The notes beneath the pieces were generated by a model that made no database searches, was not told where the DNA came from, and saw only the letters and a list, made by a program, of their open reading frames with translations. From positions 1 through 64,000 of the forward strand of contig CAIXZF010000095.1 of the NCBI GenBank assembly GCA_903923925.1: a stretch of 64,000 nt of DNA, given 5' to 3'. Below are positions 10,602 through 38,185 of the stretch, piece after piece. The position numbers and the translations under genes were made by a program. How positions within the stretch are numbered: position 1 is the stretch's first letter; every line of letters begins with the position of its first letter. The stretch is from an uncultured Bacteroidales bacterium (GTDB taxonomy: Bacteria; Bacteroidota; Bacteroidia; Bacteroidales; CAIXZF01).

Positions 10602-11969
10602 ATGAGTTTCCCGAGAACAATTTTCTTTTCTGTATTGCTTATTTTTTCATTCCTGTTTACTGAGGGGTTTGGTCAGACCAAAATAAGTAAAAGTAAAAAC
10701 GCTTATACTTTAGTGCGGAATGGCAAGCCTTATTATGTAAAAGGTCTTGGAGGTGAAGTTAACCTGGATAAGATTCTTGAAATAGGAGGAAACTCTATCC
10801 GTACCTGGGGTGTTGATAATGCCCAGCAGGTCCTGGATGAAGCCCAGAAAAAAGGCCTGACCGTAATGCTTGGAATGTGGCTTCAGCCCGAGCGACAAGG
10901 TTTTGATTACAACGACAAGGATAAAGTTCAGAAACAGCTTAATTACTTCAAAACCATCGTCCAGAAGTTCAAAGATCATCCGGCCTTGCTAATGTGGGGA
11001 ATTGGAAATGAATTAGATCTGCAGTACACAAACACTGTTGTATGGTCTGCAGTGCAGGATATCGCTAAATATATCCATGAAATCGATCCGAATCATCCAA
11101 CTTCAACAGTTACGGCAGGTTTGGATTCGATGGAGGTTCAACTGATAAAAAAAATGGCTCCTGATGTTGACATTTATTGTGTTAACACTTATGGTGACAT
11201 TGAGAATGTTCCTGCACGAATTGAACATTATGGCTGGAGTGGTCCATATATGATCACAGAATGGGGACCGAACGGTTACTGGGAATCGCCTAAAACAAGC
11301 TGGGGTGTGTCAATAGAACAGAGCAGCTCGGAGAAAAAAAAGGTCTATTTCGACCGGTATACCAATTATATTGCGCCTTACTCAGAGAAATGCCTGGGAT
11401 CTTATGCATTTCTTTGGGGAGCAAAACAGGAATACACAGAAACCTGGTTCGGATTGTTTTCAAAAGATAATACAGCCACTGAACCCATTGACGCTCTCGA
11501 AATTGCCTTCACCGGACATGCACCTTCAAAACCTGCTCCAACAGTTATTAGCTTGACTGTAGACAATAAATTTGCTAAGGATAATATCAAATTAAAGGCT
11601 GGTAATTTATACGATGCAGTTGTAGTTGCTAAAATCGGGGTGGACATGACAAAAACATCTGAAGATTCGCTCAGCCAGTTTACTTACAGCTGGAAGGTTC
11701 TTTCAGAAAGTACCGACAAAAAATCGGGTGGCGACGCTGAAGAGGAAGCACAACAAATATCTGGCCATATAAAACATAACGCACAGAAAATAATATCCTT
11801 CAGAGCCCCTTCCACCGAAGGTGCATATCGTTTATTCGTAAGTGTAAAATATAATAATAAAGTTGCCTATTCTAATATCCCGTTCAAAGTTGAAAAACGT
11901 GATGACAAAGATGGGCAGGCAAGGTTTATAGAATTCAGGAAAACAGATATGGAGTCATTCAACAAATAA
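10602..11969 (+). CDS. Secreted clan GH-A glycoside hydrolase (GH2-TIM / GH158-like)
   Basis: A 455-residue protein with a signal peptide (about 1–24, ending EGFGQ) and a TIM-barrel hydrolase domain. Two clan GH-A catalytic glutamates are visible: the acid/base in GIGNELDL (near residue 136) and the nucleophile in ITEWGPNGYW (near 220). NSIRTWGVDNAQ and GMWLQPERQGFDY match proteins usually annotated as GH2 TIM-barrel enzymes or resembling GH158 β-1,3-glucanases. The C-terminal part (about 310–440) looks like an Ig-fold accessory domain. The ATG at 10602 gives a better signal peptide than the TTG at 10581. GH3 and GH16-like partners support a β-glucan substrate; linkage is inferred. Confidence 0.75.
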   Translation: MSFPRTIFFSVLLIFSFLFTEGFGQTKISKSKNAYTLVRNGKPYYVKGLGGEVNLDKILEIGGNSIRTWGVDNAQQVLDEAQKKGLTVMLGMWLQPERQGFDYNDKDKVQKQLNYFKTIVQKFKDHPALLMWGIGNELDLQYTNTVVWSAVQDIAKYIHEIDPNHPTSTVTAGLDSMEVQLIKKMAPDVDIYCVNTYGDIENVPARIEHYGWSGPYMITEWGPNGYWESPKTSWGVSIEQSSSEKKKVYFDRYTNYIAPYSEKCLGSYAFLWGAKQEYTETWFGLFSKDNTATEPIDALEIAFTGHAPSKPAPTVISLTVDNKFAKDNIKLKAGNLYDAVVVAKIGVDMTKTSEDSLSQFTYSWKVLSESTDKKSGGDAEEEAQQISGHIKHNAQKIISFRAPSTEGAYRLFVSVKYNNKVAYSNIPFKVEKRDDKDGQARFIEFRKTDMESFNK

Positions 11970-13862
11970 ATGAAAAGACTAATACAATATTTTCTATTCC
12001 CCGCTTTGGTGATTTCCGCAAATCTCTGCCTGCGTGCACAGGAAACGGTTTCCCTGCCTGCAAAAGACAGCAGTTATAACCAGATTTGTGCATTGACAGG
12101 TGAATCGGGCAACTTCCCGAAAAAAGCGCAAGAAGCCCTTCAACAACTCACAATAAATGGTTATTACCGCTTTGTGACTAATTACAGGCACCTCCCACTG
12201 TCGTATGCTAATCTTGAAAATAACAAGAATAATATTTTTGTAGGAGACGACAGCCAGATTCCACAGTTAATGCTTAATATAAGCGGTAGTGTTGCTAAAA
12301 ACACCTCTTTCGGGACCGACCTCTATATGTGGGCACCAATGACGGGTCAGGGTCAGTCAGAAAATGTAAAAGGTCTGAACCTGGGAATCAGCCTTTATGG
12401 CACTTACTCAAGCCCGTACGGCGATTTTACAATCCGTACCGGGGGGATAAACTGGTATTCCTTATCTCCTTTTACCTTCCAGGCAAACAAAGGCTACGAC
12501 CGCTACAGTATTTTTGAAAGAAACCCATGGGATCCCAATACGAAATCACTGGATACCCGATATAACACCTTTTACAACCTTGGAGCTATTAATCAGGATG
12601 AACGATGGGGACAACAGGCTTTTCAAGGCTTAATAGTGGAAGGAAACAACCTGCCAAATGGCTTTTCAGGCGTTTTAATGTATGGAAAAACCCAATTGAA
12701 CGGTGGATTATCGCCTTTACCAAATAATTCGTACGGTGGAAAATTAAAGAAAGAATACAAATCAAATTCCATCAGTTTTAATTCCTTTAATAATACCACA
12801 TTTACCGATTCGCTTCAAAGCAGGAGAATCGGATTTAATGTATCGAGCATTGAATTTAAAAACAAGATAGGCAGGTTTCTGCTAAGGGGCGAAATTGGTG
12901 CAGGACGAACAATAGAGCAGGAACAAACAAACGATTGGGGTGAAGCCGCTTCCATCAAAATATCAAGTGATATCGCAAGAAAATTCCCAACAGAAGTTCA
13001 CCTATACCGTATAAGTCCGAAAGTTATCAATAACAGCGCTGCCTTTATCAATTCATCATTTCTGCAGGCTACTCCTGTAAACGGAACCGATAATACGCGA
13101 CCCGTTTTACCTTTGGTTGCAAGTGCAATGGTTCCTATCGGACAGCTTGTAAATAACCGGCAGGGAATCGATGTAAACAGTCAGCTGAACATTGGAAAAG
13201 TAAAAACTTCCTTTGGCTACAGTTCTGGTGTGGAATTGGAAAAGCTATCCTCAAAAATAACTTACAGTCATCCAATCAACAGCTTGGCGCTCTCCCACTT
13301 CTGGAGATGGGATTTCCCCGGAAATGTAGGACCCTACAACAACCTTTCAAAAATATACCGTACTGTTTATGAAACTGTTAACCTCACAGAAATCGATCCT
13401 GTGACAGCACTGCCAGTCCATAAAAAATACTTCAACAGTATAGAACTTAACATGAAACTCAAAGGTGAAGTCTTTAAGAAAGATTACTATATATATTATC
13501 TCGGCCAGTATAGTTCTGCTCAGAATCATCTTTCACCAATCACTGTATTTACCGAAAAGGCATTGCTCAGAACTTATTACCATCAGCTGGAGCTTTACTA
13601 TAAACTGAATAACAGGCTTATCTGGACGAATTATCTTGGATTTGAGCGAATTATAGCCAATTACAGTACCGAAACAGATTTAGTATCGCATAGACCTAAA
13701 AACCAGACTGGTTACAGTGTTGCAACAGGATTCGACATTCTGATGAGCAAAGGTGCCGGACTTTATATCCGTCAGCGATGGATGGATTACAAAGATTCGA
13801 GTTTTGAAAATGACAAGTATAAAGGCTTTGAAACAACTGTTGAAATTAAAATATTCTTTTAG
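11970..13862 (+). CDS. Putative outer-membrane β-barrel protein (630 aa)
   Basis: Not a family I recognise. It has a signal peptide (about 1–23, ending LRAQ), many alternating aromatic/polar stretches typical of β-strands, and a C-terminus ending EIKIFF with a terminal Phe, the usual signal for Bam-dependent barrel insertion. There is no TonB-dependent plug domain and no carboxypeptidase-regulatory N-terminal domain. It follows the hydrolase without an intergenic base and is followed directly by a second barrel. In a locus without SusC or SusD it may form a pore for oligosaccharides; this is inference. Confidence 0.65.
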   Translation: MKRLIQYFLFPALVISANLCLRAQETVSLPAKDSSYNQICALTGESGNFPKKAQEALQQLTINGYYRFVTNYRHLPLSYANLENNKNNIFVGDDSQIPQLMLNISGSVAKNTSFGTDLYMWAPMTGQGQSENVKGLNLGISLYGTYSSPYGDFTIRTGGINWYSLSPFTFQANKGYDRYSIFERNPWDPNTKSLDTRYNTFYNLGAINQDERWGQQAFQGLIVEGNNLPNGFSGVLMYGKTQLNGGLSPLPNNSYGGKLKKEYKSNSISFNSFNNTTFTDSLQSRRIGFNVSSIEFKNKIGRFLLRGEIGAGRTIEQEQTNDWGEAASIKISSDIARKFPTEVHLYRISPKVINNSAAFINSSFLQATPVNGTDNTRPVLPLVASAMVPIGQLVNNRQGIDVNSQLNIGKVKTSFGYSSGVELEKLSSKITYSHPINSLALSHFWRWDFPGNVGPYNNLSKIYRTVYETVNLTEIDPVTALPVHKKYFNSIELNMKLKGEVFKKDYYIYYLGQYSSAQNHLSPITVFTEKALLRTYYHQLELYYKLNNRLIWTNYLGFERIIANYSTETDLVSHRPKNQTGYSVATGFDILMSKGAGLYIRQRWMDYKDSSFENDKYKGFETTVEIKIFF

Positions 13863-15578
13863 ATGAATAAACATAAAATACCCATTGTATTCGTTGTGTT
13901 GCTTTTCTTGCAGCTGAATGTTTCAGCTCAGCAGAAACGCACAATAGATTTTATTGGTGGTGCCCGTTCATTTATTTCCAATAACAGAATACATGTTCAG
14001 GACAGCATCCCCGACACAACCACAATTAAACGGAACACCGGTGGATATGCCCTGATCGACCTTGGGCTTGATATTCGTCCGAACAAAAGCACCGAAATTC
14101 TTGGTATGTTCAGAATCCGTAACAACTACGGTGGTTTCTGGGGCTCCGGAGTTAGTTTCGATGTACGTCAGTTATGGCTAAAAGGAATTATTGGCAATGT
14201 GGTAAGGTATCAGGTTGGTGATCTGAATTTGCAACAATCGCCATACACCTTATTTAATCATCATGCCGATAAAATTGACTCACTTCCCGCGATTTTCAAC
14301 CTGCAGAACCAACTAATTTCTTACGAAAAATATTATCAGAAAAACACCTGGCACCAGCAAGGTGTAAATGCAGATTTCGGGCTTACATTCTCAAAAATTG
14401 TAAAAGAAATTGATTTCACAGGATATCTGACCCGTTTACTGGCCACCAATTTCTCAACAACTCCCGACAGGTTAATGGGTGGTTTTAGTACAAAAGTTAT
14501 TCAGAGTAAGCATTTTAGCTTCGGCTATAATTACTTTTCGGTGTTTGATGTAAAAGGAACTGTACTCGACAGCAATACATACAATAATAACGTAAATACT
14601 GTTTCCCTGGCCTATACAAGCAACATCGGCAGCAAACAGCTCGAACTTAAAGCTGAACTGGGAAGTAGCCGTGCTGAGTACTCACAATTTATTGAAGCAT
14701 CGCAACTTAAAGATAAGTTCATCAATGCCAGTGCAAAACTGCTGATCCCTAAACAGCATCTTGCTTTAACGTTGGGTTATATGAATGTGGGACCCGATTT
14801 CAGAAGCATTGGTGCACAAAGCAAGGACGTTAATTACAATTTTATTCCCGGATACTTCAATACGATCGGGAACAATCAATCCTTCAGGGCTGTTGACCTG
14901 TTTGATGTTATCAGGAATGAGAATATCTACAATGCAGGTGTTTCTGTAAATCTGATGGCAGTGAACCCCGTTTACAACAATGCTTTACCCTATGGTGAAG
15001 CAACGTTTAACAGAGAGGGCATTTTTGCAAAAGCAAGTTACAACTCTCCAAAAGGCATCTTTATTAATGCTGAACATCACTATTTATCCGAAATCAGAGG
15101 ACAGGGAACTTACCAGTTAAAGAAATTTTCAGTCACGAAAATTCTTGCCAGTGTTGATGTAAATACAATTGCTCATTTTACAAGATTAATGCGAATTCAA
15201 TTCGGTATGAATTCCCAGTCCACTAATCGGACAAGCAATGCTGAAGTTGACAATGTAAAACTCAACACAACACTTTATCAGGCAGGAATTGAATATGAGA
15301 TCATCCCGAAAGTTGATTTGCTCTTTGGAATAACAGGCGTAAACTGCAAAGGAAATGAGTTCACAACAGAACGAAACGCTTATTCAAAAGCCGAATATTT
15401 CACCCGCAATTCCTATGATTTAACACAGCAAATCTCGGCCCTGGGATTCCGTTTCAGGTTCGATGCTAAAACAAACCTTTCAGCTGTTTACCAGTCAAGC
15501 AATAATCAGGATAAGCTGAACATGAGTCCTGACTATCAAACAGATCAATTTGCACTCATTTTTAATATGACCTTTTAG
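13863..15578 (+). CDS. Putative outer-membrane β-barrel protein (571 aa)
   Basis: Not a recognised family. It carries a signal peptide (about 1–22, ending NVSAQ), β-rich amphipathic repeats across the whole chain and a C-terminus LIFNMTF ending in Phe. As with its neighbour, no plug domain is visible. It starts with no gap after the previous barrel and is followed after two bases by a lipoprotein gene, so the two barrels and two lipoproteins are likely made together. It could be a second porin or a partner of the first barrel. Confidence 0.65.
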   Translation: MNKHKIPIVFVVLLFLQLNVSAQQKRTIDFIGGARSFISNNRIHVQDSIPDTTTIKRNTGGYALIDLGLDIRPNKSTEILGMFRIRNNYGGFWGSGVSFDVRQLWLKGIIGNVVRYQVGDLNLQQSPYTLFNHHADKIDSLPAIFNLQNQLISYEKYYQKNTWHQQGVNADFGLTFSKIVKEIDFTGYLTRLLATNFSTTPDRLMGGFSTKVIQSKHFSFGYNYFSVFDVKGTVLDSNTYNNNVNTVSLAYTSNIGSKQLELKAELGSSRAEYSQFIEASQLKDKFINASAKLLIPKQHLALTLGYMNVGPDFRSIGAQSKDVNYNFIPGYFNTIGNNQSFRAVDLFDVIRNENIYNAGVSVNLMAVNPVYNNALPYGEATFNREGIFAKASYNSPKGIFINAEHHYLSEIRGQGTYQLKKFSVTKILASVDVNTIAHFTRLMRIQFGMNSQSTNRTSNAEVDNVKLNTTLYQAGIEYEIIPKVDLLFGITGVNCKGNEFTTERNAYSKAEYFTRNSYDLTQQISALGFRFRFDAKTNLSAVYQSSNNQDKLNMSPDYQTDQFALIFNMTF

Positions 15579-15580
15579 TT

Positions 15581-16579
15581 ATGAAAAAGATTTTTCTTTT
15601 CGCTATATGCCTGCTGAGTATTTATGCGTGCAAAAAAGAGAGCAGTACCTTCGATGGGCCAAGCATCGAAGAAATGTACAGCAATTTTAGTGTACTTGCT
15701 GATTTCAAATGTGATAAAGATAGCGTCGACTTTGCTGCTGGAGAAAAAGCCTTGTTTACGGCTAAATTTAACAAACCGGTAAACTGGAAGATAACTATTA
15801 CAGGTCAAACCTCTCATGCACAAAAAGAAATTACCGGCATCAGCAAAAGCATTGATGCCACAAATGGTATATGGAATGGCTCAACAAGCGTTTTCCCGAT
15901 GTTTAAAGCCGAACATTGCATTGCAAAATTAACAATAACTGATGTTGCCGACACTTTCCAGGTAGCTGTTAAAATCAGAACTGTTAAGGTAAATGAAGGT
16001 TTCGTTATTGCTGATTTTGAGAACGGATTCAATCCTTTATGGGTCAAGTTCGTGCAGTCGGGTGCAAATATGGATTTTACCATAAAGACCGACTCCCTTG
16101 CCCCACAGGGCGCAAAATATTTAAAAATGGCAGGCACCGTTAACTGGGACTGGCTTATCGGCATGATAGATTATCCTGCAAAAGCCTACGGAACGGCAAA
16201 CACCTTGTCGCTTCCTACAAATGCCGATCAGGTATATTTCAACTGCTTAATTTACGGTGTACCCGGCACAAATGACTCAAAGGTGCTTTTTCAGTTTAGA
16301 GAAGACGAAAACGCTGATGGTATAATTAATGCTGCTACCGACGATGAGTATGATGTGGAAATTCCCGTGACCTGGACAGGATGGAAACTGTTTAGTGTCA
16401 AATATTCAGATTTGGTTAGCTTAACCAACGGACAACCTACCACTCCTCACGGAAACAGTATACACAATCCTGATAAAATCGGCAAAATATCAATGCTGCA
16501 CCTTGCTGATCCTGCAAATGGGTTTGCCAGCTGCAAAATAGATTATATCATTTTTACAAACAGCCCTTTAGAACCATAA
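15581..16579 (+). CDS. Surface lipoprotein with carbohydrate-binding-like domain
   Basis: A 332-residue lipoprotein: N-terminus MKKIFLFAICLLSIYAC with the lipobox Cys at 17. Residues about 25–130 look like an Ig/FnIII-type domain. Residues about 135–330 resemble jelly-roll carbohydrate-binding modules: FVIADFENGFNPLW at the start, a strand pattern including YFNCLIYGV, and the closing strand KIDYIIFTNSP. It may fill the role that surface glycan-binding proteins have in Sus-type loci, placing glucan near the barrels. The family is not certain; the lipoprotein call is firm. The last base of its stop is the first base of the next gene. Confidence 0.7.
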   Translation: MKKIFLFAICLLSIYACKKESSTFDGPSIEEMYSNFSVLADFKCDKDSVDFAAGEKALFTAKFNKPVNWKITITGQTSHAQKEITGISKSIDATNGIWNGSTSVFPMFKAEHCIAKLTITDVADTFQVAVKIRTVKVNEGFVIADFENGFNPLWVKFVQSGANMDFTIKTDSLAPQGAKYLKMAGTVNWDWLIGMIDYPAKAYGTANTLSLPTNADQVYFNCLIYGVPGTNDSKVLFQFREDENADGIINAATDDEYDVEIPVTWTGWKLFSVKYSDLVSLTNGQPTTPHGNSIHNPDKIGKISMLHLADPANGFASCKIDYIIFTNSPLEP

Positions 16580-17238
16580 TGAAGCTTCAAGCCTTATATA
16601 TTTTACTCGTATTGGGTTTAACTAGCTGTTTAACCAACAAATCTTCTTTTGTGCAGGTACAGAAGAAAGATCTCTACGATATTTCTGTGGCAGAGGATAC
16701 TACGTCTGTTTATGGATTTAAAGAACTGATCATCTTTTCAGATATCCTCGATAATACAGTATGGGTATCACCCGAGAAAAACTGTGTTACACTAACCAAA
16801 GAAACTACTCAGACATATGCCGGAAAAACTTCGATACACCTTAGCTGGGATAAAATAACAGGCGGATGTAAATGGATTGGGCTCGGGTTTGGATGGAATA
16901 GCTGGCAACCTAAGAATATGCTCGATATTGTTGATTATGCTGCAATTGAATTTCATGTGAAAGCCGTCAAAGGCAGTTTTTCAAACCTGCCCGTTGCCTT
17001 TGCCATCGAAGATTATACAGGTGTTCAAACATTTTATGGTTTTAATTCGAGCCTGGCTTCAGGAAAATTCAATGATAAAACCTGGACAACAGTTACCATA
17101 CCTCTGAAAAATTTTCCTTTCCAGAGCAAAGATGCCGATTTAGGAAAAGTTAAACAGTTTATGATTCAGCTTGAAGCTGATGGTGATATTTATTTAGATG
17201 AGATAAGAATAGTAAAATACAACGATGCGAAAAATTAG
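16579..17238 (+). CDS. Lipoprotein with CBM11/CIA30-like jelly roll
   Basis: A 219-residue lipoprotein with lipobox LGLTSC (Cys17). The mature part is one β-sandwich domain: KELIIFSDILDNTVW, WDKITGGCKWIGLGFGW, a central AIEFHVKA and the final strand GDIYLDEIRIVKY. This pattern is shared by CBM11, CIA30 and related jelly-roll modules that bind β-glucans. It overlaps the GH3 gene by 14 bases. A role in holding the substrate at the cell surface is inferred from fold and context. Confidence 0.65.
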   Translation: MKLQALYILLVLGLTSCLTNKSSFVQVQKKDLYDISVAEDTTSVYGFKELIIFSDILDNTVWVSPEKNCVTLTKETTQTYAGKTSIHLSWDKITGGCKWIGLGFGWNSWQPKNMLDIVDYAAIEFHVKAVKGSFSNLPVAFAIEDYTGVQTFYGFNSSLASGKFNDKTWTTVTIPLKNFPFQSKDADLGKVKQFMIQLEADGDIYLDEIRIVKYNDAKN

Positions 17239-19468
17239 TCTCTTCTTTATTTGTATGATTTTTACTCTGCCGGGTTTTGCTCAACGCGGCGGCATTTCCA
17301 TTGACTCTATCGTTTCTTTAATGAGTATTGAGGAAAAGGTTGGTCAAATGACCCAGGTTGATTTGGGTGTTATTGCAAAAGGAGAAAACTGCAAATTACA
17401 AACACCCCAGGAATTGGATCTCAGCAAGTTAAACCTGGCGATTACAAAATACAAAATTGGTTCTGTACTCAATGTTGGCTGCGGAAGTGGTACAATTTCC
17501 CTGGAGAACTGGCGCAAAATTATCGGTAGTATTCAGAATGAAAATGCAAAATATTCGCGCTTAAAAATTCCGGTTATTTATGGGGTTGATGCTATTCATG
17601 GGGTTAATTATACTGTAGGCGGAACCTTATTCCCTCAGCAGATTGGCCAGGCTGCCACCTGGAACCCGGCACTTGTTGAACAGGCCAACGCAATTACTGC
17701 TTATGAAACCAGAGCCAGTGCAATTCCATGGAATTTCTCCCCGGTTCTCGATATCGGACGACAGCCGCTTTGGTCGAGGTTTTTTGAAACCTATGGAGAA
17801 GACGTCTACCTGGCAAAAACAATGGCAAAAGCTGCCATTAACGGCCTGCAGGGCAAAGATGTGAGCAGTCCTTACAAAGTTGCAGCTTGCATGAAACACT
17901 TTCTCGGTTATAGTTACCCCTTAAGCGGGAAAGACAGAACTCCTGCCTGGATCTCCGACAGGGAACTGAGAGAATATTTTGTGCCTACTTTCCAACAGGC
18001 AATTGAGAGCGGTGCTAAAACTATTATGATAAATTCTGGTGACATTAACGGCACCCCGGTTCATGCAAATTATGACATTCTCACTGTATTGCTCCGTAAC
18101 GAACTGGGATTTAAAGGAGTAGCTGTTACCGACTGGGAAGATATCTATAAATTAGAGAAAGTACACAGGGTTGCTTCCAGTAAAAAAGAAGCTGTAAAAA
18201 TGGCAATAATGGCGGGTATTGATATGAGTATGACTCCTTTGGATTTTGAATTCACCGAATTGCTTGTTGAACTTGTTAAAGAAGGCAGTATTCCTGAAAG
18301 CCGGATCAATTTGTCTGTTAAACGAATTTTAACCCTGAAAAAAGAATTAGGTTTGTTTGCTTATCCCTTCTATCCTTCTGATCAATATCCCAAATTTGGT
18401 TCAAAAGAATATGCCGAAGTGAGCTATCAAACTGCATGCGAATCGGTTACTCTGCTGAAAAACCAGAATACTATTTTACCGCTTACGAACACTAAAGAAA
18501 AAATCTTTGTCTGCGGCCCTTCAGCAAATTCCCTGAACTTGCTGAACGGTGGCTGGACTCACACCTGGCAAGGGGTTGATACACTTTACAATACAAAAAA
18601 TAAATTAAGCATCCTTCAGGCTTTGCGAAATAATTTTGGCAACAATCAGATTCTTTATGCAAAAGGCAGTAGCACCGATAGCCTTATTGATTTACAGAAT
18701 TGTATTAATCAGGCCGCTAAAGCTGATAAAATAATCGTCTGTCTGGGCGAAATACCCTGTACAGAATTACCAGGGAATATTGATGACCTATCCTTACCCA
18801 AAGCCCAGAATACCTTAGTAACAAAACTCTTAGCATTAAACAAACCTCTGATTCTTGTTTGCTGCTTTAACAGACCAAGAATTATTCACGATATTGTACC
18901 AGCTTCGGCTGCTGTTATTTATGCCTATCTTCCTGGAGATGAAGGTGGAAGGGCAATTGCAGACTGTATTTCCGGAAAGATTAATCCAAGTGGGAAGTTG
19001 CCTTTCACCTATCCAAAATCGGTTAATGATTTTGTTCACTACGACCACAAAACCACAGAAGAACTGTCCACAGATTTTTCAATGAATGGATACCAACCCG
19101 AATTCGATTTCGGATTTGGACTTTCGTACACCAATTTTACGTATTCTGCAATGGAGTTTTCAAAAACCACACTTTCAGGTAATGATTCTGTTGAAGTATC
19201 GATAACAATTACCAATGCTGGGAAAAGAGCAGGAAAAGAGGTAGTACAGTTATACTATAAAGATCTGTTTGCTTCAATCACACCTCCGGTTAAGAAGCTC
19301 TGCAATTTTCAGAAAGTGGAGTTGAATTCCGGGGAATCGAAGAAAATACGGTTTATTCTCAAAAAAGAAGACTTCTCCTTTATTAATAAAGCCTTACAAA
19401 GAGTCACAGAAGCAGGCGAAATTGAAATCCAAATCTCTAATCAGCACAAGCGTATTTATGTCAACTAA
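17225..19468 (+). CDS. Glycoside hydrolase family 3 β-glucosidase
   Basis: A 747-residue GH3 enzyme with a signal peptide (about 1–20, ending GFAQ), so probably periplasmic. Order: (β/α)8 domain (about 25–370), α/β sandwich (about 395–610) and a C-terminal FnIII-like domain (about 650–745). Key residues: Lys224-His225 in CMKHFLGYS for substrate binding, and the nucleophile Asp303 in GVAVTDWEDI. GH3 enzymes of this architecture release glucose from the non-reducing end of β-gluco-oligosaccharides. It overlaps both neighbours (14 bases before, 11 after), so translation is coupled within the operon. Confidence 0.9.
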   Translation: MRKISLFFICMIFTLPGFAQRGGISIDSIVSLMSIEEKVGQMTQVDLGVIAKGENCKLQTPQELDLSKLNLAITKYKIGSVLNVGCGSGTISLENWRKIIGSIQNENAKYSRLKIPVIYGVDAIHGVNYTVGGTLFPQQIGQAATWNPALVEQANAITAYETRASAIPWNFSPVLDIGRQPLWSRFFETYGEDVYLAKTMAKAAINGLQGKDVSSPYKVAACMKHFLGYSYPLSGKDRTPAWISDRELREYFVPTFQQAIESGAKTIMINSGDINGTPVHANYDILTVLLRNELGFKGVAVTDWEDIYKLEKVHRVASSKKEAVKMAIMAGIDMSMTPLDFEFTELLVELVKEGSIPESRINLSVKRILTLKKELGLFAYPFYPSDQYPKFGSKEYAEVSYQTACESVTLLKNQNTILPLTNTKEKIFVCGPSANSLNLLNGGWTHTWQGVDTLYNTKNKLSILQALRNNFGNNQILYAKGSSTDSLIDLQNCINQAAKADKIIVCLGEIPCTELPGNIDDLSLPKAQNTLVTKLLALNKPLILVCCFNRPRIIHDIVPASAAVIYAYLPGDEGGRAIADCISGKINPSGKLPFTYPKSVNDFVHYDHKTTEELSTDFSMNGYQPEFDFGFGLSYTNFTYSAMEFSKTTLSGNDSVEVSITITNAGKRAGKEVVQLYYKDLFASITPPVKKLCNFQKVELNSGESKKIRFILKKEDFSFINKALQRVTEAGEIEIQISNQHKRIYVN

Positions 19469-20300
19469 AGTCATATTTTTGAGTTTATCAGTACTGATTG
19501 GGCTGAGTTTCATCTCCTGTAAACAATCAGACCCTCCTGTTCCGGACGATCCTTCAGGAAAAGGTGATTTGTATTTTTCAGGCTATTATTGGAATATTAA
19601 GAATAGCAATGGGACCCAGGCAGGTCCGGGTCCTAATATTTTCACAAATGCTCCGGCAAATATCTGGCTCGACGCCAGCAATATGCTCCATCTGAAGATT
19701 ACAAAAACAAACAACACCTGGCTCTGCAGCGAAATCATTTCATCAAAAGCCTTTGGGTATGGAACCTATATTTTCACCACCGCAAGCGATCTGACTATTC
19801 TAAATGAAAAGACTATTTTCGGATTATTTACCTGGAACAGCTATTCATTCCAGACTCAGGCAAACAGTGAAGTGGATATTGAATTTTCAAGATGGAATGC
19901 CGCCAGTGACTCTCTTTTAATTACCTACAGTGTACAGCCCGTATGGTTCGACAATCCTTCACCCTATGTAGAAAGAACAAGGAAACCCCCAATGCAGGTA
20001 AGCAAGCTACATGGAGCATGTACACATATGTTTAAATGGACCCCTGCTATGATTACCTGGGAAACCTATGAGGGAGATTCCTACCCGGGCACAAATTTAC
20101 TGTCAAGCTGGTCGTTCAATAATACGAACCCTCCGCGAAATAAGCTGGAAAATGGTCTCATATCAAACCCAATAGTGATCCCGGCTCCTGAAGACAGCAC
20201 AAATGTTAGGTTTAACCTTTGGCTATTGAATGGTCAGGCACCTTCGAACAACCAGGAGCAGGAAGTTGTGCTGAAATCATTCAGATTTATACCACTGTAA
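19458..20300 (+). CDS. GH16-like lipoprotein
   Basis: A 280-residue lipoprotein when started at the ATG at 19458 (MSTKVIFLSLSVLIGLSFIS then lipobox Cys); the longer frame from 19422 adds 12 residues without a signal-peptide character. A concanavalin-like fold is suggested by the strand pattern. EVDIEF (Glu138, Asp140, Glu142) fits the E-x-D-x-E active-site strand of GH16. ELWA-type tryptophans around the cleft are less clear, so it may be a divergent endoglucanase or a former enzyme used for binding. It is the last gene of the tight operon; a 93-base gap follows. Confidence 0.65.
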   Translation: MSTKVIFLSLSVLIGLSFISCKQSDPPVPDDPSGKGDLYFSGYYWNIKNSNGTQAGPGPNIFTNAPANIWLDASNMLHLKITKTNNTWLCSEIISSKAFGYGTYIFTTASDLTILNEKTIFGLFTWNSYSFQTQANSEVDIEFSRWNAASDSLLITYSVQPVWFDNPSPYVERTRKPPMQVSKLHGACTHMFKWTPAMITWETYEGDSYPGTNLLSSWSFNNTNPPRNKLENGLISNPIVIPAPEDSTNVRFNLWLLNGQAPSNNQEQEVVLKSFRFIPL

Positions 20301-20393
20301 TTAATGATATTTTACATATTCACGAAATTATTGAAATCAAATTATCATACATATAACTAAAAATGTAATTATTAACTTTAAAAATTATCCCAT

Positions 20394-23300
20394 ATGAAAA
20401 AAGGAATACTTATTCTGATTTCAAGCTTGATGATTTCATTATTCAGCTTTGCTCAGACACATTCTGTAACCTTTCAGGTGCATAATCCGAGTACAACTCC
20501 GGTTTATGTATTTGGAAACTGGAGCGGCTGGTCGAACTGGCCCGGCGACGTGATGACTTCAATTGGTAACAACACCTACGCTGTTACCCTGCAACTTAAC
20601 GGTAACGCAACTTACGAATTTTTATATGTTAACGGCGTTGCACCTGCCAAAGAAACTCTCAATCCCGCATGGACATGTACAAATGGCAATGCGCAGTATA
20701 CGAACAGAGTGCTTTCTCTCGGAAGCCAGAACACAACGGTTTGTTACGAATGGGAAAGCTGCACTTCATGTGGTGGCGCAGTTTTAACCCAGGTTGACCT
20801 TCCGGTTACCTTCGATAACTCAAATGTTAACTATTTGTTTGCTGATTTTGGCGGAAATGCAAGTGTTATTCATGCTGACCCTGTTGTACCAACAAATATG
20901 GTTTGTAAAACCATCAAAACAGGCTCCGCAGAATTATGGGCTGGTACCACTATCAGTGGAGGTGGAACGGCTGGTTTCGCTACAGCTATTCCTTTTACTG
21001 CTAATTCAACTAAAATTTCGATGAGAGTATTCTCTCCTGATGCCGGAATTCCTGTACGAATGAAGGTTGAAGACCCTAATGATTATACAAAATGTGTTGA
21101 AACAGAAGCAATGACAACTGTTGCTAATACCTGGGAAACCCTTGAATTCAATTTTGCGAATCAGGCTCCCGGTACTGCAGCTATTAACTTAGGCTACATT
21201 TATAAAAAATTATCGGTATTCTTCAATTTCGGAACTACTGGCGCTGTTGCCGGTGAGAAGACTTACTATTTTGATGATATAAGCTTTGGTGGTGCTCCGG
21301 TTGTTTTAAACCAGGTAAACCTTCCGGTTACCTTTGATGCCACTAACATTGATTATGCGCTGGTTGATTTTGGCGGAAATGCAAGTGTTATTCAGGCTGA
21401 CCCTGTTGTACCAACAAATATGGTTTGTAAAACCATAAAAACAGGCTCCGCAGAATTATGGGCTGGTACCACTATCGGTGGAACGGCTGGTTTCGCTACA
21501 GTTATCCCTTTTACTGCTAATGCAACCAAAATTACAATGAGAGTGTACTCTCCTAATGCAGGAATTCCTGTAAGAATGAAGGTTGAAGACCCTAATGATC
21601 CTACAAAAAGTGTTGAAACAGAAGCAATGACAACAGTTGCGAACGCCTGGGAAACCCTTGAATTCAATTTTGCGAATCAGGCTACAGGTACTGCAGCTAT
21701 TAACTTTAGCTACATTTATAAAAAATTATCAGTATTCTTTAATTTCGGAACAACTGGTGCTATTGCCGGTGAGAAGACGTATTATTTTGATGATGTAACT
21801 TTTGGTGGCGGTTCTGTGGTACTAAACCAGGTAAACCTTCCGGTTACTTTCGATAATACTAATATTAATTATGCTCTGGTTGATTTTGGTGGAAATGCAA
21901 GTGTTATCCAGGCTGACCCTGTTGTACCAACAAATTTAGTTTGTAAAACGATAAAAGGGAACACAGCAGAATTATGGGCTGGTACAACTATCGGTGGAAC
22001 AACAGGTTTCGCTACAGCTATTCCTTTTGCAGCTAATGCAACAAAAATTACAATGAGAGTGTACTCTGCAAATGCCGGAATTCCTGTAAGATTGAAGGCT
22101 GAAGACGCAACTGATCCTACAAAAAGTGTTGAAACAGAAGCAATGACAACTGTTGCAAATGCCTGGGAAACCCTTGATTTCAATTTTGCAAATCAGGCTA
22201 CAGGAACTGCAGCTATAAACTTTGGCTACACATATAAAAAATTATCGGTATTCTTTAATTTCGGAACCACTGGCGCAGTTGCCGGTGAGAAGACATATTA
22301 TTTTGATGATGTTCAGTTTGGTGCTGTAACACCTTCTACTACCTCTGTTACTTTCAAAGTACACAACCCTCAGTCAACACCGGTTTTCGTTTATGGTAGC
22401 TGGAGCAACTGGGCAAACTGGCCAGGTGAACTAATGGCAGATATTGGCAACAATACCTATCAGGCTACAGTTCAGCTAACAACCGGAACAGTTTATGAAT
22501 ATCTTTATGTTAACGGTGATCCTTTCACAAAAGAAGTGCTTGATCCTTCATGGGCCTGTACAAACGCAAATACCCAGTATACAAACAGGGTTATGACTGC
22601 TGCCGGAGCCACTATGGAACTCTGCAATAATTGGGCAAGCTGCGATGCCTGCGGTTCTTCTGGCTTAACGCAGGTTAACCTGCCTGTAACCTTCGACAAC
22701 ACCAATGTAGCATACGAACTTGTTGATTTTGGCGGAAATGCAAGTGTAATTATGGCCGATCCTGCAAACCCATCGAACATGGTAACACAGACCATAAAAG
22801 GAAATACAGCAGAATTATGGGCTGGTACAACGATCGGTGGAACAGCTGGTTTCTCTACAGCTATTCCTTTTGCCGCTGGTGCAACAACAATGAGCATGCG
22901 TGTTTACTCTCCTGATGCAGGAATTAAGGTTCGTATGAAAGTAGAAGACCCCAACGACCCAACAAAAAGCGTTGAAACTGAAGCTACTACTGCAACATCA
23001 AATGCATGGGAAACCCTTACATTCAACTTTGCAAACCAGGCTCCCGGAACTGCAGTTATTAACTACGGTTATACATTTAAAAAATTATCTGTATTCTTCA
23101 ACTTTGGAGTTACTGGTGCTGCAGCTGGTACAAAAACTTACTATTTTGATGATATTCAATTTGGTAATGCAGCCCCTACTACTACCAATGTTACCTTCAG
23201 GGTTCACAATCCTCAGACTACTCCTGTATATGCTTTTGGCAGCTGGGGTGGTTGGGTTAACTTTCCAGGTAATCTGATGACTTCTGTAGGAAATAACACC

Positions 23301-24665
23301 TATGAAGTTACTATTCAGCTAAATACTTCAACAATTTACGAATATCTGTATGTAAATGGTAATGAACCTGTTAAGGAAGTTCTAGACCCAACCTGGTTAT
23401 GTACAAACGGAAACTCTCAATACACAAACAGGATTTTCACTACAGGAACAAGTAGTTCAACAATGTGCTCCGACTGGGGCTCATGTGCAACATGCGATGG
23501 CGTAAATATTTCTGGTACTGTTAGCTACTTCAATTCTTTAGCATCTGCAATGTCGAACACTTCAGTTTACCTCTGTCATGGAACCGACACTTTAGGAACA
23601 ACTACAACAAATGCTGATGGTCAGTACGCTTTTGCAAATAAGCCGGCAGGCCTTTACACTCTGAAAACAAAAACCACCAAAGCATGGGGTGGCGGAAATG
23701 CTACAGACGCATTACTCATCCTGAAACATTTCGTCGGATCAGCTATTCAAACCGGACTTGCTCTTACAGCTTGCGATGTTGATGCTTCAACATTTACAAA
23801 CGCTGCGGATGCACTTTCAGTAATGAAACGCTTTGTAGGTCTTCAGAATGCTTTCCCTTCAGGCGACTGGGCATACACTCATCCTACAGTTTCAACACTT
23901 TCAGGTGTTAATGCTACACAGAATATCAACGCTTTATGTTTTGGTGATATTAATGGTTCATTTATTCCTGAAGCTAAAACTGAAGCTGGAATTTCAATTA
24001 AAAACCAGGGCCTTGCTGTTTGCAGTGCGAATGGAATCTTCGAAATCCCAGTAAAATTAAACGTTTCATCACCTGCATCAGCCTTATCGCTGAACCTTGA
24101 ATATTCTACTTCCGATTTCGAAATTCTTGAAATTATTCCTTCAGCAAAAATGCAATCGAACGAGAATAGTATGTTCATGGCAAATAATACTGCCGGCAAC
24201 CTTCAACTCGCATGGCTAAGTCTGTCTCAGACCATTGGCACCGACGATGCAGTTCTGTTTACACTGAAAGTAAAAATGCTGAATAAGAAAACTCCTGAAT
24301 TTACAATCGGAAGCTCAAGCAATTGTTCTGATATTTCCGGAAACGATCTTCAGAATTCAAACCTAATTATTCCATCATTCTCTCAGAATACTACTGAATC
24401 ATCATTGAGCTTCTGCAGCCCGAATCCATTTACAAATGCACTGTCTGTTAATGTAAATGTACCTGAAAAAGGTATGCTTAAGGTGAAAATTTCCTCTGTT
24501 CAGGGTCAGGATATTCTGGTAGTAAATGAAAGTGTTCTCGAATCAGGAGTGCATCAGTTTGTTCAGGATCTTTCGCAGCTAAAATCAGGCATGTATCTGC
24601 TTATCACGGAGTTCGAAGGCAGCACATCCAAATTAACGAAGATTGAAAAGATTCTTAAGAACTAA
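20394..24665 (+). CDS. T9SS-exported multimodular glycan-binding protein with dockerin- and cohesin-like regions
   Basis: A 1423-residue secreted protein. Order: signal peptide (1–20); starch/glycogen-binding-like E-set module A1 (about 24–128); jelly-roll modules B1 (131–302), B2 (304–475), B3 (477–645); A2 (651–756); B4 (758–925); A3 (932–1036); a carboxypeptidase-regulatory-like fold (1037–1100); two dockerin-like segments (NATDALLILKHFVG near 1103 and TNAADALSVMKRFVG near 1135, then FGDINGSF near 1183); a cohesin-like β-domain (about 1198–1325); and a type A T9SS sorting domain (about 1338–1423, from CSPNPFTNALSV). No catalytic domain is visible. It probably binds glucan at the cell surface and could join with other proteins; scaffold function is inference. 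Confidence 0.8.
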   Translation: MKKGILILISSLMISLFSFAQTHSVTFQVHNPSTTPVYVFGNWSGWSNWPGDVMTSIGNNTYAVTLQLNGNATYEFLYVNGVAPAKETLNPAWTCTNGNAQYTNRVLSLGSQNTTVCYEWESCTSCGGAVLTQVDLPVTFDNSNVNYLFADFGGNASVIHADPVVPTNMVCKTIKTGSAELWAGTTISGGGTAGFATAIPFTANSTKISMRVFSPDAGIPVRMKVEDPNDYTKCVETEAMTTVANTWETLEFNFANQAPGTAAINLGYIYKKLSVFFNFGTTGAVAGEKTYYFDDISFGGAPVVLNQVNLPVTFDATNIDYALVDFGGNASVIQADPVVPTNMVCKTIKTGSAELWAGTTIGGTAGFATVIPFTANATKITMRVYSPNAGIPVRMKVEDPNDPTKSVETEAMTTVANAWETLEFNFANQATGTAAINFSYIYKKLSVFFNFGTTGAIAGEKTYYFDDVTFGGGSVVLNQVNLPVTFDNTNINYALVDFGGNASVIQADPVVPTNLVCKTIKGNTAELWAGTTIGGTTGFATAIPFAANATKITMRVYSANAGIPVRLKAEDATDPTKSVETEAMTTVANAWETLDFNFANQATGTAAINFGYTYKKLSVFFNFGTTGAVAGEKTYYFDDVQFGAVTPSTTSVTFKVHNPQSTPVFVYGSWSNWANWPGELMADIGNNTYQATVQLTTGTVYEYLYVNGDPFTKEVLDPSWACTNANTQYTNRVMTAAGATMELCNNWASCDACGSSGLTQVNLPVTFDNTNVAYELVDFGGNASVIMADPANPSNMVTQTIKGNTAELWAGTTIGGTAGFSTAIPFAAGATTMSMRVYSPDAGIKVRMKVEDPNDPTKSVETEATTATSNAWETLTFNFANQAPGTAVINYGYTFKKLSVFFNFGVTGAAAGTKTYYFDDIQFGNAAPTTTNVTFRVHNPQTTPVYAFGSWGGWVNFPGNLMTSVGNNTYEVTIQLNTSTIYEYLYVNGNEPVKEVLDPTWLCTNGNSQYTNRIFTTGTSSSTMCSDWGSCATCDGVNISGTVSYFNSLASAMSNTSVYLCHGTDTLGTTTTNADGQYAFANKPAGLYTLKTKTTKAWGGGNATDALLILKHFVGSAIQTGLALTACDVDASTFTNAADALSVMKRFVGLQNAFPSGDWAYTHPTVSTLSGVNATQNINALCFGDINGSFIPEAKTEAGISIKNQGLAVCSANGIFEIPVKLNVSSPASALSLNLEYSTSDFEILEIIPSAKMQSNENSMFMANNTAGNLQLAWLSLSQTIGTDDAVLFTLKVKMLNKKTPEFTIGSSSNCSDISGNDLQNSNLIIPSFSQNTTESSLSFCSPNPFTNALSVNVNVPEKGMLKVKISSVQGQDILVVNESVLESGVHQFVQDLSQLKSGMYLLITEFEGSTSKLTKIEKILKN
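20784..23168 (+). repeat. Intragenic B-module repeats (four copies of about 500 bp)
   Basis: Four copies of a segment of about 170 codons start near 20784, 21303, 21822 and 22665. The first three are in tandem and the fourth is separated by an A module. Copies 1 and 2 share long stretches that are identical or nearly so at the DNA level, including silent positions (for example around 20840–20950 and 21365–21475), which points to recent duplication or gene conversion. Copy 4 is more diverged. Confidence 0.85.
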
Positions 24666-24722
24666 GTCTTAAACCTCTGTAAATCTGACTAACTTTAGAG
24701 AATAAATTAAATATCAAAACCT

Positions 24723-26012
24723 ATGAAAAAAGTATTGCTTGCATTTTTTATCAGCATAATACTAACCTCATTCTGTAATGCTCAATCTGTTAATGTAGTT
24801 TTTCAGGTCCATAACCCATCTACAACTCCCGTTTATGTTTTCGGAAGCTGGAATTGGACTTACTGGCCAGGAACACTTATGACATCTGTTGGGAACGGGT
24901 ATTATGCAGCTACAGTCTCTTTAACGGCAAACACCGGATATGAATTCCTTTTTGTGAATGGAAGCACTCCGGCCAAAGAGGTTTTAGATCCTTCATGGCC
25001 ATGTACAAACGGGAATGCTACCTATACAAACAGGATGTTCGCACTTGGCGGTGCCGACACTACTGTTTGTTACGACTGGGCATCCTGTACCTCCTGCAAT
25101 GTACCAACATCCAACGTAGCGGTAACTTTCCAGGTACACAACCCTGATTCTGTTCCTGTTCATGTTTTCGGAAGCTGGAGCAATTGGGCAAATTGGCCGG
25201 GCGAGGTTATGAACGCTATCGGAAATGGCTATTATACAGCTACTATTATTCTGCCTTCAAACCAAAACTATGAATACCTCTTCGTAAATGGCACAGGCCC
25301 TACTAAAGAAGTACTTGACCCAACATGGTCATGTACCAACGGGAATTTGCAGTATACAAACAGGATTTTAGGACTGGGCGGCAGCGACACAACAGTTTGC
25401 TTTAACTGGCAAAGCTGTACTTCCTGTAACGTACCTTCTAATACCATTAATGTAAAATTCCAGGTCGAAAGCCCTGATTCTGTCCCCGTTTACGTATTCG
25501 GGAGCTGGAACAACTGGGGAAACTGGCCTGGAACGCAAATGGCTAATTTTATGGGTACTACCTGGGAAACTTCGCTACAGTTGAATTCTAACCAGGCCAT
25601 CGAATATTTGTTTGTAAATGGTATCACCAAGGAAGTACTTGATCCGTCATGGGCATGTACCAATGGGAATGCTACCTATACAAACAGGTTAACAACACTT
25701 GGGAATTCGGACACCACAATTTGCGGAGTCTGGAGCACCTGCCTTAACTGCACTGTATCAATCAATTCAATACAGAAGGATGATACAAAAATAAGCCTCA
25801 GCAAAGAAGGAATCCAGATTTTCTCTACCTCCGGTAAAGCAATTGAACAGCTTGAAGTTTATGATCTCATGGGCAGAAGACTGTTTGCTTCCGATAAAAC
25901 CTATACTGGTAACACTCTTATTCCAATTGGTTTTAATGCAGGTTCTTTATACCTGGTTAAAGTCAAAATAGATAAGCAATTTTTAACTTTTAAAGGATTG
26001 GTATTAAAATAA
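24723..26012 (+). CDS. T9SS-exported protein with three E-set glycan-binding-like modules
   Basis: A 429-residue protein: signal peptide (about 1–20, ending CNAQ), three copies of the A module also found in the previous gene (about 23–127, 130–238, 239–345), each opening like VTFQVHNP and ending in the Cys-rich CYDWASCTSCN, and a type A T9SS sorting domain (about 349–429). The fold resembles CBM20/CBM48 glycogen-binding domains. No enzyme domain is present. It looks like a small companion of the 1423-residue protein, bound at the surface or released. It ends 15 bases before a strong terminator. Confidence 0.8.
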   Translation: MKKVLLAFFISIILTSFCNAQSVNVVFQVHNPSTTPVYVFGSWNWTYWPGTLMTSVGNGYYAATVSLTANTGYEFLFVNGSTPAKEVLDPSWPCTNGNATYTNRMFALGGADTTVCYDWASCTSCNVPTSNVAVTFQVHNPDSVPVHVFGSWSNWANWPGEVMNAIGNGYYTATIILPSNQNYEYLFVNGTGPTKEVLDPTWSCTNGNLQYTNRILGLGGSDTTVCFNWQSCTSCNVPSNTINVKFQVESPDSVPVYVFGSWNNWGNWPGTQMANFMGTTWETSLQLNSNQAIEYLFVNGITKEVLDPSWACTNGNATYTNRLTTLGNSDTTICGVWSTCLNCTVSINSIQKDDTKISLSKEGIQIFSTSGKAIEQLEVYDLMGRRLFASDKTYTGNTLIPIGFNAGSLYLVKVKIDKQFLTFKGLVLK

Positions 26013-26027
26013 ACCGATCTTAGCAAA

Positions 26028-26066
26028 AAAAATGAAGCCCTTCGTTTTTTGAAGGGCTTCATTTTT
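26028..26066. terminator. Strong intrinsic terminator
   Basis: A perfect 16-bp stem (26028–26043 with 26051–26066) closes a 7-base loop and has A and T runs at its ends, so it can stop transcription in both directions. It ends the glycan-binding genes and separates them from the permease. Confidence 0.9.
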
Positions 26067-26105
26067 ATAATTAAAAGTATTACAGTAAATTAAATAACAA
26101 GCATT

Positions 26106-27524
26106 ATGTCCAAATCTGGTAAAAGTGGTTTTTCAGCATTGTCAATCATTATTTCAGTGTTCTTTCTCTGGGGTTTTGTTGCTGCATCTAATGGCATTTT
26201 TATACCTTTTTGCAAAGGCCATTTCAGTCTGACACAATTTCAGTCGCAGCTCATCGATTTCACATTTTATGGCGGGTACTTTATAGGATCCATTCTTTTA
26301 CTTGTGCTATCGCAAATTGTCAAAGTTGATATCCTCAACAGAATTGGCTATAAAAAAGGTATCATATACGGATTGTTGATTTCCGTAGTTGGCGCTTTAG
26401 CGATCATACCTTCAGTACATGCCGGATCATTCGGTTTGATTTTAGGTTCACTTTTTATCGTTGCTCTAGGCTTCTCGCTGCAACAAACAAGTGCACAGCC
26501 TTTTGTTGTTGCTCTGGGAAGTCCTGAAACAGGTGCTCACCGGCTTACCCTTGCTGGTGGCGTTAATTCTTTAGGTACAACACTCGGCCCTATTGCTATT
26601 GCCTTTGTTTTGTTTGGTTCGGTTGGTAGTCAGACTGAGGTTTCTCTCAGCTCAATAAACGCATTGTATTTAATTCTTGCCGGCGTTTTTACACTCGGCG
26701 CTATTTTCCTCTCAGTTGTTAAACTCCCGGTTGTAACAAACGAAGAACCCTTCGAACCCGGTGTTGGTTCACTGAAATACCCACAGCTTGTTTTAGGAAT
26801 GATTGCCATTTTTACCTACGTTGGCGTGGAAGTTTCCATTCAGAGTAATATGGGTGCTTTGCTGAAAGACCAGGCTTTTGGAGGATTTCTTGAAAACGAT
26901 ATTGCTCCCTTTATTTCTTTATACTGGGGAAGTCTCATGATCGGCCGATGGGCTGGTGCCATTGCTGCTTTCGATATTTCTAAAAAGCTTAAACAGATTC
27001 TTACCGTCATCGTGCCTTTTGTTGCATTTGCTATAATACTTTTCGTTAATAGTTTAGGTGGAAAAGATATCAGCCATCTGTATAATTATATTTTCTGTGT
27101 TGTAATTCTGGTTGCTGCATTTTTTATCGGAAACGAAAAACCAGCCAGAACGCTGATGATATTCTCATTTATTGGAATAACTGCAATGATTATCGGCCTG
27201 TTAACTACAGGGCAAATTGCACTTTATGCCTTTATCAGTGGTGGACTAGCCTGTAGTATCATGTGGCCATGCATTTTTGCAATGTCGATTTCCGGACTTG
27301 GCAAATATACAAGCCAGGGTGCGGCTTTTCTTATAATGATGATTCTGGGAGGTGCAATTATTCCGCCTTTACAAGGAAAATTAGCTGATGTTATTGGTAT
27401 TCACATGAGTTATATTATCCCGGTATTCTGCTTTGCTTACCTCGCTTTCTTTGCTTTCAGGGCTAAGGCAGTTTTAAAACTACAGGGCATCGATGAAGAC
27501 CAGATTGGTAAGGCAGCACATTAA
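26106..27524 (+). CDS. FucP/GluP-like sugar MFS permease
   Basis: A 472-residue inner-membrane protein with about 12 hydrophobic helices. The first helix region ([19 protein letters not shown]) and the loop [19 protein letters not shown] match the fucose/glucose/galactose:H+ symporter branch of the major facilitator superfamily. A conserved [16 protein letters not shown] lies before helix 5. It probably brings glucose or small oligosaccharides made by the GH3 enzyme into the cytoplasm. The terminator upstream means it needs its own promoter or read-through. Confidence 0.85.
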
Positions 27525-38158: not shown

Positions 38159-38185
38159 GGTATATATATTTTTTAAATTATTCAA

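Follow-up and report, generated by a model that had tools for sequence, protein, structure and literature searches.

A β-Glucan Locus of an Uncultured Bacteroidales Bacterium in Which a Conserved Pair of Outer-Membrane Barrels Probably Takes the Place of SusC/SusD

Organization of the Locus

We analyzed a stretch of 64,000 nucleotides (hereafter, the window; contig CAIXZF010000095.1 of assembly GCA_903923925.1, positions 1 to 64,000) from an uncultured Bacteroidales bacterium, in which an operon at positions 10602-20300 encodes a glycoside hydrolase of family GH158, two outer-membrane barrels that we call OMP1 and OMP2, two binding-type lipoproteins, a GH3 enzyme, and a GH16-like lipoprotein. 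The operon is followed by the genes for two secreted proteins and then by that for an MFS permease, which ends at position 27524 (Table 1). An earlier note on this DNA had listed these genes as a glucan-utilization-like locus, and all of them were found where it had placed them. The core is tightly packed, with intergenic gaps of 0, 0, 2, −1, and −14 bases; if the GH16-like gene starts at the ATG at position 19458, then its gap to the preceding GH3 gene is −11.

Table 1. Genes of the locus and the upstream regulator, with their positions in the window and the basis of each assignment.
Feature	Position	Strand	Basis
Putative regulator, Reg_prop - Y_Y_Y - LuxR-type helix-turn-helix (GerE)	7387..10278	+	Pfam
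GH158 endo-β-1,3-glucanase, signal peptide	10602..11969	+	Profile match, catalytic residues
OMP1, plug-less outer-membrane barrel, 630 residues, first of the pair	11970..13862	+	AlphaFold model, no Pfam
OMP2, plug-less barrel, 571 residues, directly 3' of OMP1	13863..15578	+	AlphaFold model, adjacency
Lipoprotein, lipA family, 332 residues, putative first surface glycan-binding protein	15581..16579	+	Lipobox in sequence
Lipoprotein, CBM30 / SGBP-B type, 219 residues	16579..17238	+	PF21582 5.2e-8, PF18329 1.9e-6
GH3 β-glucosidase-type enzyme, signal peptide	17225..19468	+	Pfam
GH16-like lipoprotein, lichenase-type ExDxE, probably cell-surface	19458..20300	+	Profile match, motif
Large secreted binding protein, CBM20/26/48-like modules, type IX secretion system (T9SS) sorting tail	20394..24665	+	Pfam (modules weak)
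Secreted protein, CBM20/26/48-like modules	24723..26012	+	Pfam
MFS permease, probable sugar uptake across the inner membrane	26106..27524	+	PF07690

Enzymes and Binding Proteins

The assignment of the operon to β-glucan utilization is supported by its enzymes. The hydrolase previously placed in clan GH-A is a GH158, whose family profile matches solved GH158 structures over nearly the whole chain (9oro, "GH158(Pro)", E 4.3e-117; 6pal, E 9.5e-101), with the catalytic N-E and E residues present. These residues (N136/E137 and E220, counted from the ATG) are invariant in 30 of 30 aligned sequences and share their numbering with the catalytic residues of BuGH158 in the available text of PMC7157763. 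The enzyme is the single strong GH158 match in its own genome, a second one being short and weak (E 1e-3). Inspection of its sequence revealed neither a lipobox nor a T9SS tail, and for this reason we would place it in the periplasm. The GH3 enzyme is certain by Pfam, and the proposed sugar permease proved to be an MFS_1 protein.

Other assignments stood in part. The profile of the GH16-like lipoprotein finds 1,3-1,4-β-glucanases (lichenases) at E 2.5e-4, and its ExDxE motif is invariant in the 11 aligned sequences, while Pfam gives no match. Of the two lipoproteins proposed to be jelly-rolls, the second matches CBM30 and SGBP_B_XBD over the cut-offs; the first (lipA family, 15581-16579) has no Pfam match, and the lipoprotein families A3 and A4 gave no PDB sequence-profile match at E ≤ 1. 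It is possible that this first lipoprotein is a surface glycan-binding protein (SGBP). The second is 219 residues long in the window and about 380-440 in many relatives, a CBM9-like second module being present in 12 of the 14 long relatives. Both secreted proteins had been described as exported by the T9SS: the first (20394-24665) indeed matches Por_Secre_tail, whereas the second (24723-26012) has no tail match at E ≤ 0.001. Both (20394-26012) carry CBM20/26/48-like modules, while the enzymes of the same locus point to β-glucan.

The Two Barrels

The claim that the barrels, of 630 and 571 residues, belong to no recognized family and lack a plug agrees with the searches. Neither has a Pfam match at E ≤ 1, and Plug or TonB_dep_Rec were matched by none of 31 OMP1 and none of 30 OMP2 sequences (E ≤ 0.01). 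These diverse sequences, tested with Pfam for both proteins and with NCBIfam for OMP1 only, yielded weak barrel-family matches in one or two members each (BBP2, DUF3575, DUF2490, OMP_b-brl, OmpA_membrane, and PRK11367.1; E 0.0005-0.006). The PDB sequence profiles gave nothing at E ≤ 1 for OMP1 or OMP2. The possibility that the pair contains a plug-carrying TonB-dependent transporter (TBDT) in disguise is ruled out by the Pfam searches of the 31 and 30 sequences. A conserved TonB box at the N-terminus of OMP1 was also considered and rejected: the mature start of the window's protein slightly resembles the motif, and the resemblance is not conserved in the aligned rows.

AlphaFold models both proteins as barrels, with a predicted local distance difference test score (pLDDT) of 72.5 and a predicted template modeling score (pTM) of 0.71 for OMP1, and values of 82.3 and 0.79 for OMP2. 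The OMP1 model aligns with 5t3r_D of BT1762-1763 (Z 15.2, root-mean-square deviation (rmsd) 4.2, 392 residues aligned, chain residues 211-1016), which we take to be the SusC chain of that complex, and equally well with porins and ushers. The best fold matches of OMP2 are pilus ushers (FimD, Z 17.0, rmsd 4.9, 328 residues aligned), with OprD-type porins at Z ~15. In these comparisons (VIA-align), many unrelated wide barrels stand at tied Z for both models; since such matches are those of a general wide barrel, no family was assigned from the fold. Lacking a Pfam family, both proteins are likely to be overlooked in annotation.

Conservation and Distribution of the Cassette

The search of genomes for the same gene set revealed a recurrent OMP1-OMP2-lipoprotein cassette accompanied by glycan enzymes. 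A scan of contigs with OMP1 gave 40 loci, and further loci came from genome samples (395 genomes of the window's class, 395 of its phylum, and 396 and 387, overlapping, of one large order); at most three candidates were scored per genome, so that copy numbers are lower bounds. The resulting 102 stretches, including the window, hold 100 OMP1 genes, two stretches (L132 and L208) being without an OMP1 frame of at least 300 residues. Adjacency was defined as the next open reading frame (ORF) on the same strand, skipping ORFs on the opposite strand and those shorter than 100 residues.

With this definition, OMP2 is the gene after OMP1 in all 97 assessable cassettes (three are cut by contig ends), a lipA lipoprotein follows OMP2 in 92 of 93 (the exception is L111; four are cut), and a second binding-type lipoprotein comes next in 82 of 87 (77 of the SGBP type and five like the first; five are cut). 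Since some of these cassettes also went into the profiles for OMP2 and the lipoproteins, the labels are not fully independent. In the remaining five cassettes (L086, L087, L089, L090, and L092), all from one small genome group, GH3 follows directly. When the cassettes were merged at 95% identity, 89 remained, with OMP2 in 86/86, lipA in 81/82, and the second lipoprotein in 71/76. The OMP2 of the window shows 33-66% BLAST identity to its counterparts in the 39 scanned-contig loci that reach that far. Relatives of the Reg_prop-Y_Y_Y-GerE regulator adjoin some of the other cassettes, too.

The two barrels also co-occur when position is disregarded. OMP1 is present in 48 of the 395 genomes of the window's class, and a position-independent search found OMP2 in 49 of them, that is, in all 48 with OMP1 and in one more (G332), where base 23 of the contig is the first of the match. 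The window's own genome has one copy of each, and none of the other 14 genomes of this order in the class sample matches either. Outside the class, the cassette occurs in four genomes of the 395-genome phylum sample, and plasmid records gave no match to OMP1. The earlier proposal that the barrels form a different uptake path survived the search for barrels lying away from glycan genes, OMP1 standing beside OMP2 wherever the contig continued. The constant adjacency of OMP2 and the nearly constant presence of the lipoproteins rule out, within these stretches, an ordinary porin found away from glycan genes; judged by gene neighborhood, the predicted barrels are not stray porins.

Two further observations concern the distribution. 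High-GC genomes of the same phylum and another class (L131-L133) possess the cassette too, and GH158 accompanies it in two of them. The record that supplied one cassette (L035) bears the title "Euryarchaeota archaeon"; on the tree, however, this cassette falls among Flavobacteriales, and the contig is probably misassigned.

Absence of SusC and SusD from the Cassettes

The absence of SusC/SusD from the operon, also proposed in the earlier note, agrees with both profile and blastp searches. The SusC and SusD profiles, built from the four pairs of the window's own genome, recovered held-out members at 3e-182 or better and 8.6e-40 or better, respectively. Over the 102 stretches, the SusD profile found no match at E ≤ 0.001 and the SusC profile a single ORF, in L131. 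Blastp over 85 stretches (the window and 84 loci) returned the same ORF and a weak hit to positions 38186-41845 of the window (27% over 221 residues), where a TBDT-like protein of 1218 residues with CarboxypepD_reg and Plug domains is encoded. This TBDT-like gene adjoins another on the same, minus strand (together 34043-41845), which encodes a protein of 1379 residues, an unusually large partner with no Pfam match at E ≤ 0.001.

Exchange of Enzymes and the OMP1 Tree

The enzymes accompanying the barrels differ from one cassette to another. Among 83 full-barrel cassettes, 57 are labeled GH158, 11 GH16 without GH158, five GH18/NagB, four GH9, and one GH97, and five have no label. A cassette was labeled when an enzyme of the window or an example enzyme was matched, by BLAST or profile, at any point of its stretch, which extends for up to about 10 kb to each side. 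Contig ends truncate several stretches, and in L090 the gene responsible for the GH18 label lies outside the cassette group. The example enzyme labels were checked with Pfam. In one genome group (f19), up to three cassettes occur per genome, those of G157 carrying GH16/GH3, GH97, and GH9, respectively. Several differently equipped cassettes within one genome are more in keeping with a substrate-specific module than with a general assembly factor.

On the OMP1 tree, which is a quick tree with SH-like approximate likelihood ratio (SH-aLRT) support, no bootstrap, and two long branches flagged, the enzyme labels require 16 changes compared with 25.1 when shuffled, no shuffle out of 200 reaching so low a number. 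Full SH-aLRT support (100) was obtained for a single group holding the GH9 cassettes of four genomes, and likewise for a chitin-type group (L082, L100, L109, L110, and L112; L110 without an enzyme call). Four of the latter cassettes (L082, L100, L109, and L112) have matches to GH18, which in L082 is fused to an OmpA domain, or to glucosamine-6-phosphate isomerase, and are likely to represent a chitin system free of SusCD. Another cassette (L103, 6000-15811) is preceded by genes for a sulfatase and a sulfatase-modifying factor and followed by GH158, and a sulfated glucan may be its substrate.

The two barrels appear more closely tied to each other than to the enzyme. The distances of OMP1 and OMP2 correlate at 0.77 over the 83 loci and at 0.82 in the 51 loci with one GH158, in which the correlations of the barrel distances with those of GH158 are 0.55 and 0.63; all these values are inflated by species relatedness, and only the difference between them is informative.

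Comparison with Known Systems

SusC/SusD is regarded as the hallmark of a polysaccharide utilization locus (PUL) in Bacteroidota (PMC12016534). Like Sus systems, the cassette has paired outer-membrane components, binding lipoproteins, and several copies per genome with different enzymes; unlike them, it has neither the SusC plug nor the SusD family, and two barrels are found instead of a barrel and a lid. The closest counterpart in enzymes is the 1,3GUL of Bacteroides uniformis, in which, according to the available text of PMC7157763, GH16, GH158, and GH3 accompany a SusC-type TBDT, SusD (SGBP-A), and a hybrid two-component system (HTCS). The window shares with it GH158, GH3, putative SGBPs, and a nearby regulator, and it has a GH16-like enzyme, whereas its predicted importer is OMP1 and OMP2 rather than TBDT and SusD, and its regulator is of the YYY-LuxR type rather than an HTCS.

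The closest counterpart in architecture is chu_1276-1280 of Cytophaga hutchinsonii, described in the available text of PMC12016534 as two outer-membrane proteins, two binding-type proteins with a β-sandwich (CHU_1278 and CHU_1279), and an endoglucanase. The same text reports that C. hutchinsonii requires this cluster to use cellulose and can dispense with its SusC/SusD homologs, calls the cluster an atypical PUL without SusC/SusD, and notes its presence in C. aurantiaca and Sporocytophaga (PMC12016534); CHU_1280 is a GH9 enzyme (PMC6247017). The window has a like composition, with two outer-membrane proteins, two SGBP-like proteins, an endoglucanase, and no SusCD, its enzyme being GH158 where the Cytophaga cluster has GH9 and acts on cellulose. 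The order OMP-OMP-SGBP-SGBP-GH9 of the latter is that of the GH9 cassettes found here.

A further resemblance comes from the second lipoprotein of the GH9 cassettes (380-381 residues), which in L091 has aromatic residues at positions 89 (Y), 92, 180, 255, 258, and 349, to be compared with W89, F92, F180, Y253, F256, and F343 in CHU_1279, of 375 residues (PMC12016534). With Y accepted in place of W89 and positional shifts of 6 to 8 residues tolerated, this spacing was found in 4/4 GH9 lipoproteins, whose close kinship makes them roughly a single event, in 0/361 other ORFs of 330-480 residues, and in 3/2000 shuffles. OMP1 and OMP2 would likely belong to the family of CHU_1276/CHU_1277, a link drawn indirectly from gene order and residue spacing.

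Glycan loci free of SusCD are therefore not wholly new: chu_1276-1280 precedes this one, as do carbohydrate-active enzyme (CAZyme) clusters without susCD, a recognized class that includes β-1,3-glucan clusters (PMC12016534, PMC5827456, PMC10108472). The latter are defined by absence, and the available texts of PMC5827456 and PMC10108472 name no outer-membrane importer as a replacement. In the literature covered, mostly outside subscription journals, the Cytophaga work is the only like system that we recognized, and we found no description there of a β-1,3-glucan version with these barrels, of their breadth and strict pairing, or of chitin-type or GH97 versions. The barrels and lipoproteins are likely to constitute a substrate-specific outer-membrane uptake module replacing SusC/SusD, which is new for β-1,3-glucan and wider than published. 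If this is correct, some loci filed as mere CAZyme clusters have an importer of their own, and the import of oligosaccharides needs another model. The module also bears on how Cytophaga moves cellooligosaccharides across its membranes, the proteins responsible being said to be unknown in the available text of PMC6247017.

Interpretation and Alternatives

We estimate at roughly three in four the probability that the window holds a β-(1,3)-/mixed-linkage-glucan locus in which OMP1, OMP2, and two surface lipoproteins replace SusC/SusD, a system of the same kind as chu_1276-1279 that exists in versions for other glycans. This is, in essence, the different outer-membrane path put forward in the earlier note, and it is still the best reading. 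It is carried by the gene content, the strict pairing of the barrels, the conserved cassette, the swapped enzymes, and the lack of SusC/SusD and of a plug; from these genes and the predicted structures we infer transport and surface location. The secreted binding proteins and the two lipoproteins, the latter presumably located at the surface, would hold the glucan, which the GH16-like lipoprotein would cut there. The oligosaccharides might then enter through OMP1 and OMP2 acting together, possibly as one complex, be it passively as through the porins evoked in the earlier note or by energized transport; GH158 and GH3, probably periplasmic, would finish the digestion, and the MFS permease would take up the sugar. 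With somewhat less assurance, we lean towards a broader view, namely, that OMP1, OMP2, and the two lipoproteins represent a second class of importer across Bacteroidota, independent of SusC/SusD and perhaps of TonB, which is combined with enzymes for β-1,3-glucan, cellulose, chitin, and α-glucan, and of which the C. hutchinsonii cluster is one member.

Several points weigh against these views. CBM20/26/48 folds are known from starch binding, and the modules of the secreted proteins are of the starch-binding type. The confidence of the OMP1 model is moderate. Five cassettes are without the second lipoprotein and one is without a lipA call. The enzyme labels are scattered on the OMP1 tree (11 changes for GH158, eight for GH16-only, and three for GH18/NagB, one of them a stray), GH9 being the only label that forms one group. 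The link with chu_1276-1280 is indirect. For the GH158 of B. uniformis, the predicted location is the cell surface and not the periplasm (PMC7157763). Poorly binding variants of CHU_1279 suffice for growth, according to the available text of PMC12016534, and for this reason the role of this protein may be structural. Finally, a TBDT-like gene with a plug (38186-41845) is found in the window at 10.7 kb downstream of the operon, one of 27 plug-domain matches in the genome, so that the glucan might be imported by a TonB receptor.

The main alternative, which we regard as unlikely, is that the barrels are a scaffold or an assembly/export device that places the lipoproteins and the GH16-like enzyme, the sugar entering via a general porin or another TonB receptor. 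The usher-like fold of OMP2 would suit such a role, as would the fact that the presence of CHU_1279 matters more than its binding (PMC12016534), and the idea is compatible with the mutant phenotypes of the Cytophaga cluster in the available text of PMC5553014. However, ushers are themselves wide barrels and porins follow close behind them, while the multi-enzyme cassettes per genome and the tree groups sharing an enzyme fit substrate recognition better.

Less probable still is an auxiliary locus whose barrels are accessory porins, with import mainly by one of the four SusC/SusD pairs of the genome or by another TBDT such as the plug protein of the window, since one pair belongs to a starch set, the other three have different neighbors, the genome has a single strong GH158 match, and its Pfam-level GH16 lies on a contig without a SusD match. 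All four pairs lie on contigs other than that of the window. The starch Sus set includes SusE/F, a SusG-type GH13, and GH65, and the tested neighbors of the other three pairs are rhamnosidase/GDSL-like, GH35/42-like, and an M28 peptidase. The sole Pfam-level GH16 is a T9SS protein; GH16-like genes elsewhere in the genome could be missed, given that Pfam misses the one in the window. Returning to the replacement of SusC/SusD by the barrels, the neighbors of the SusC/SusD pairs, the single strong GH158, and the position of the GH16 suggest a division of labor: one and the same cell appears to run a canonical Sus for starch and the OMP1/OMP2 module for β-glucan.

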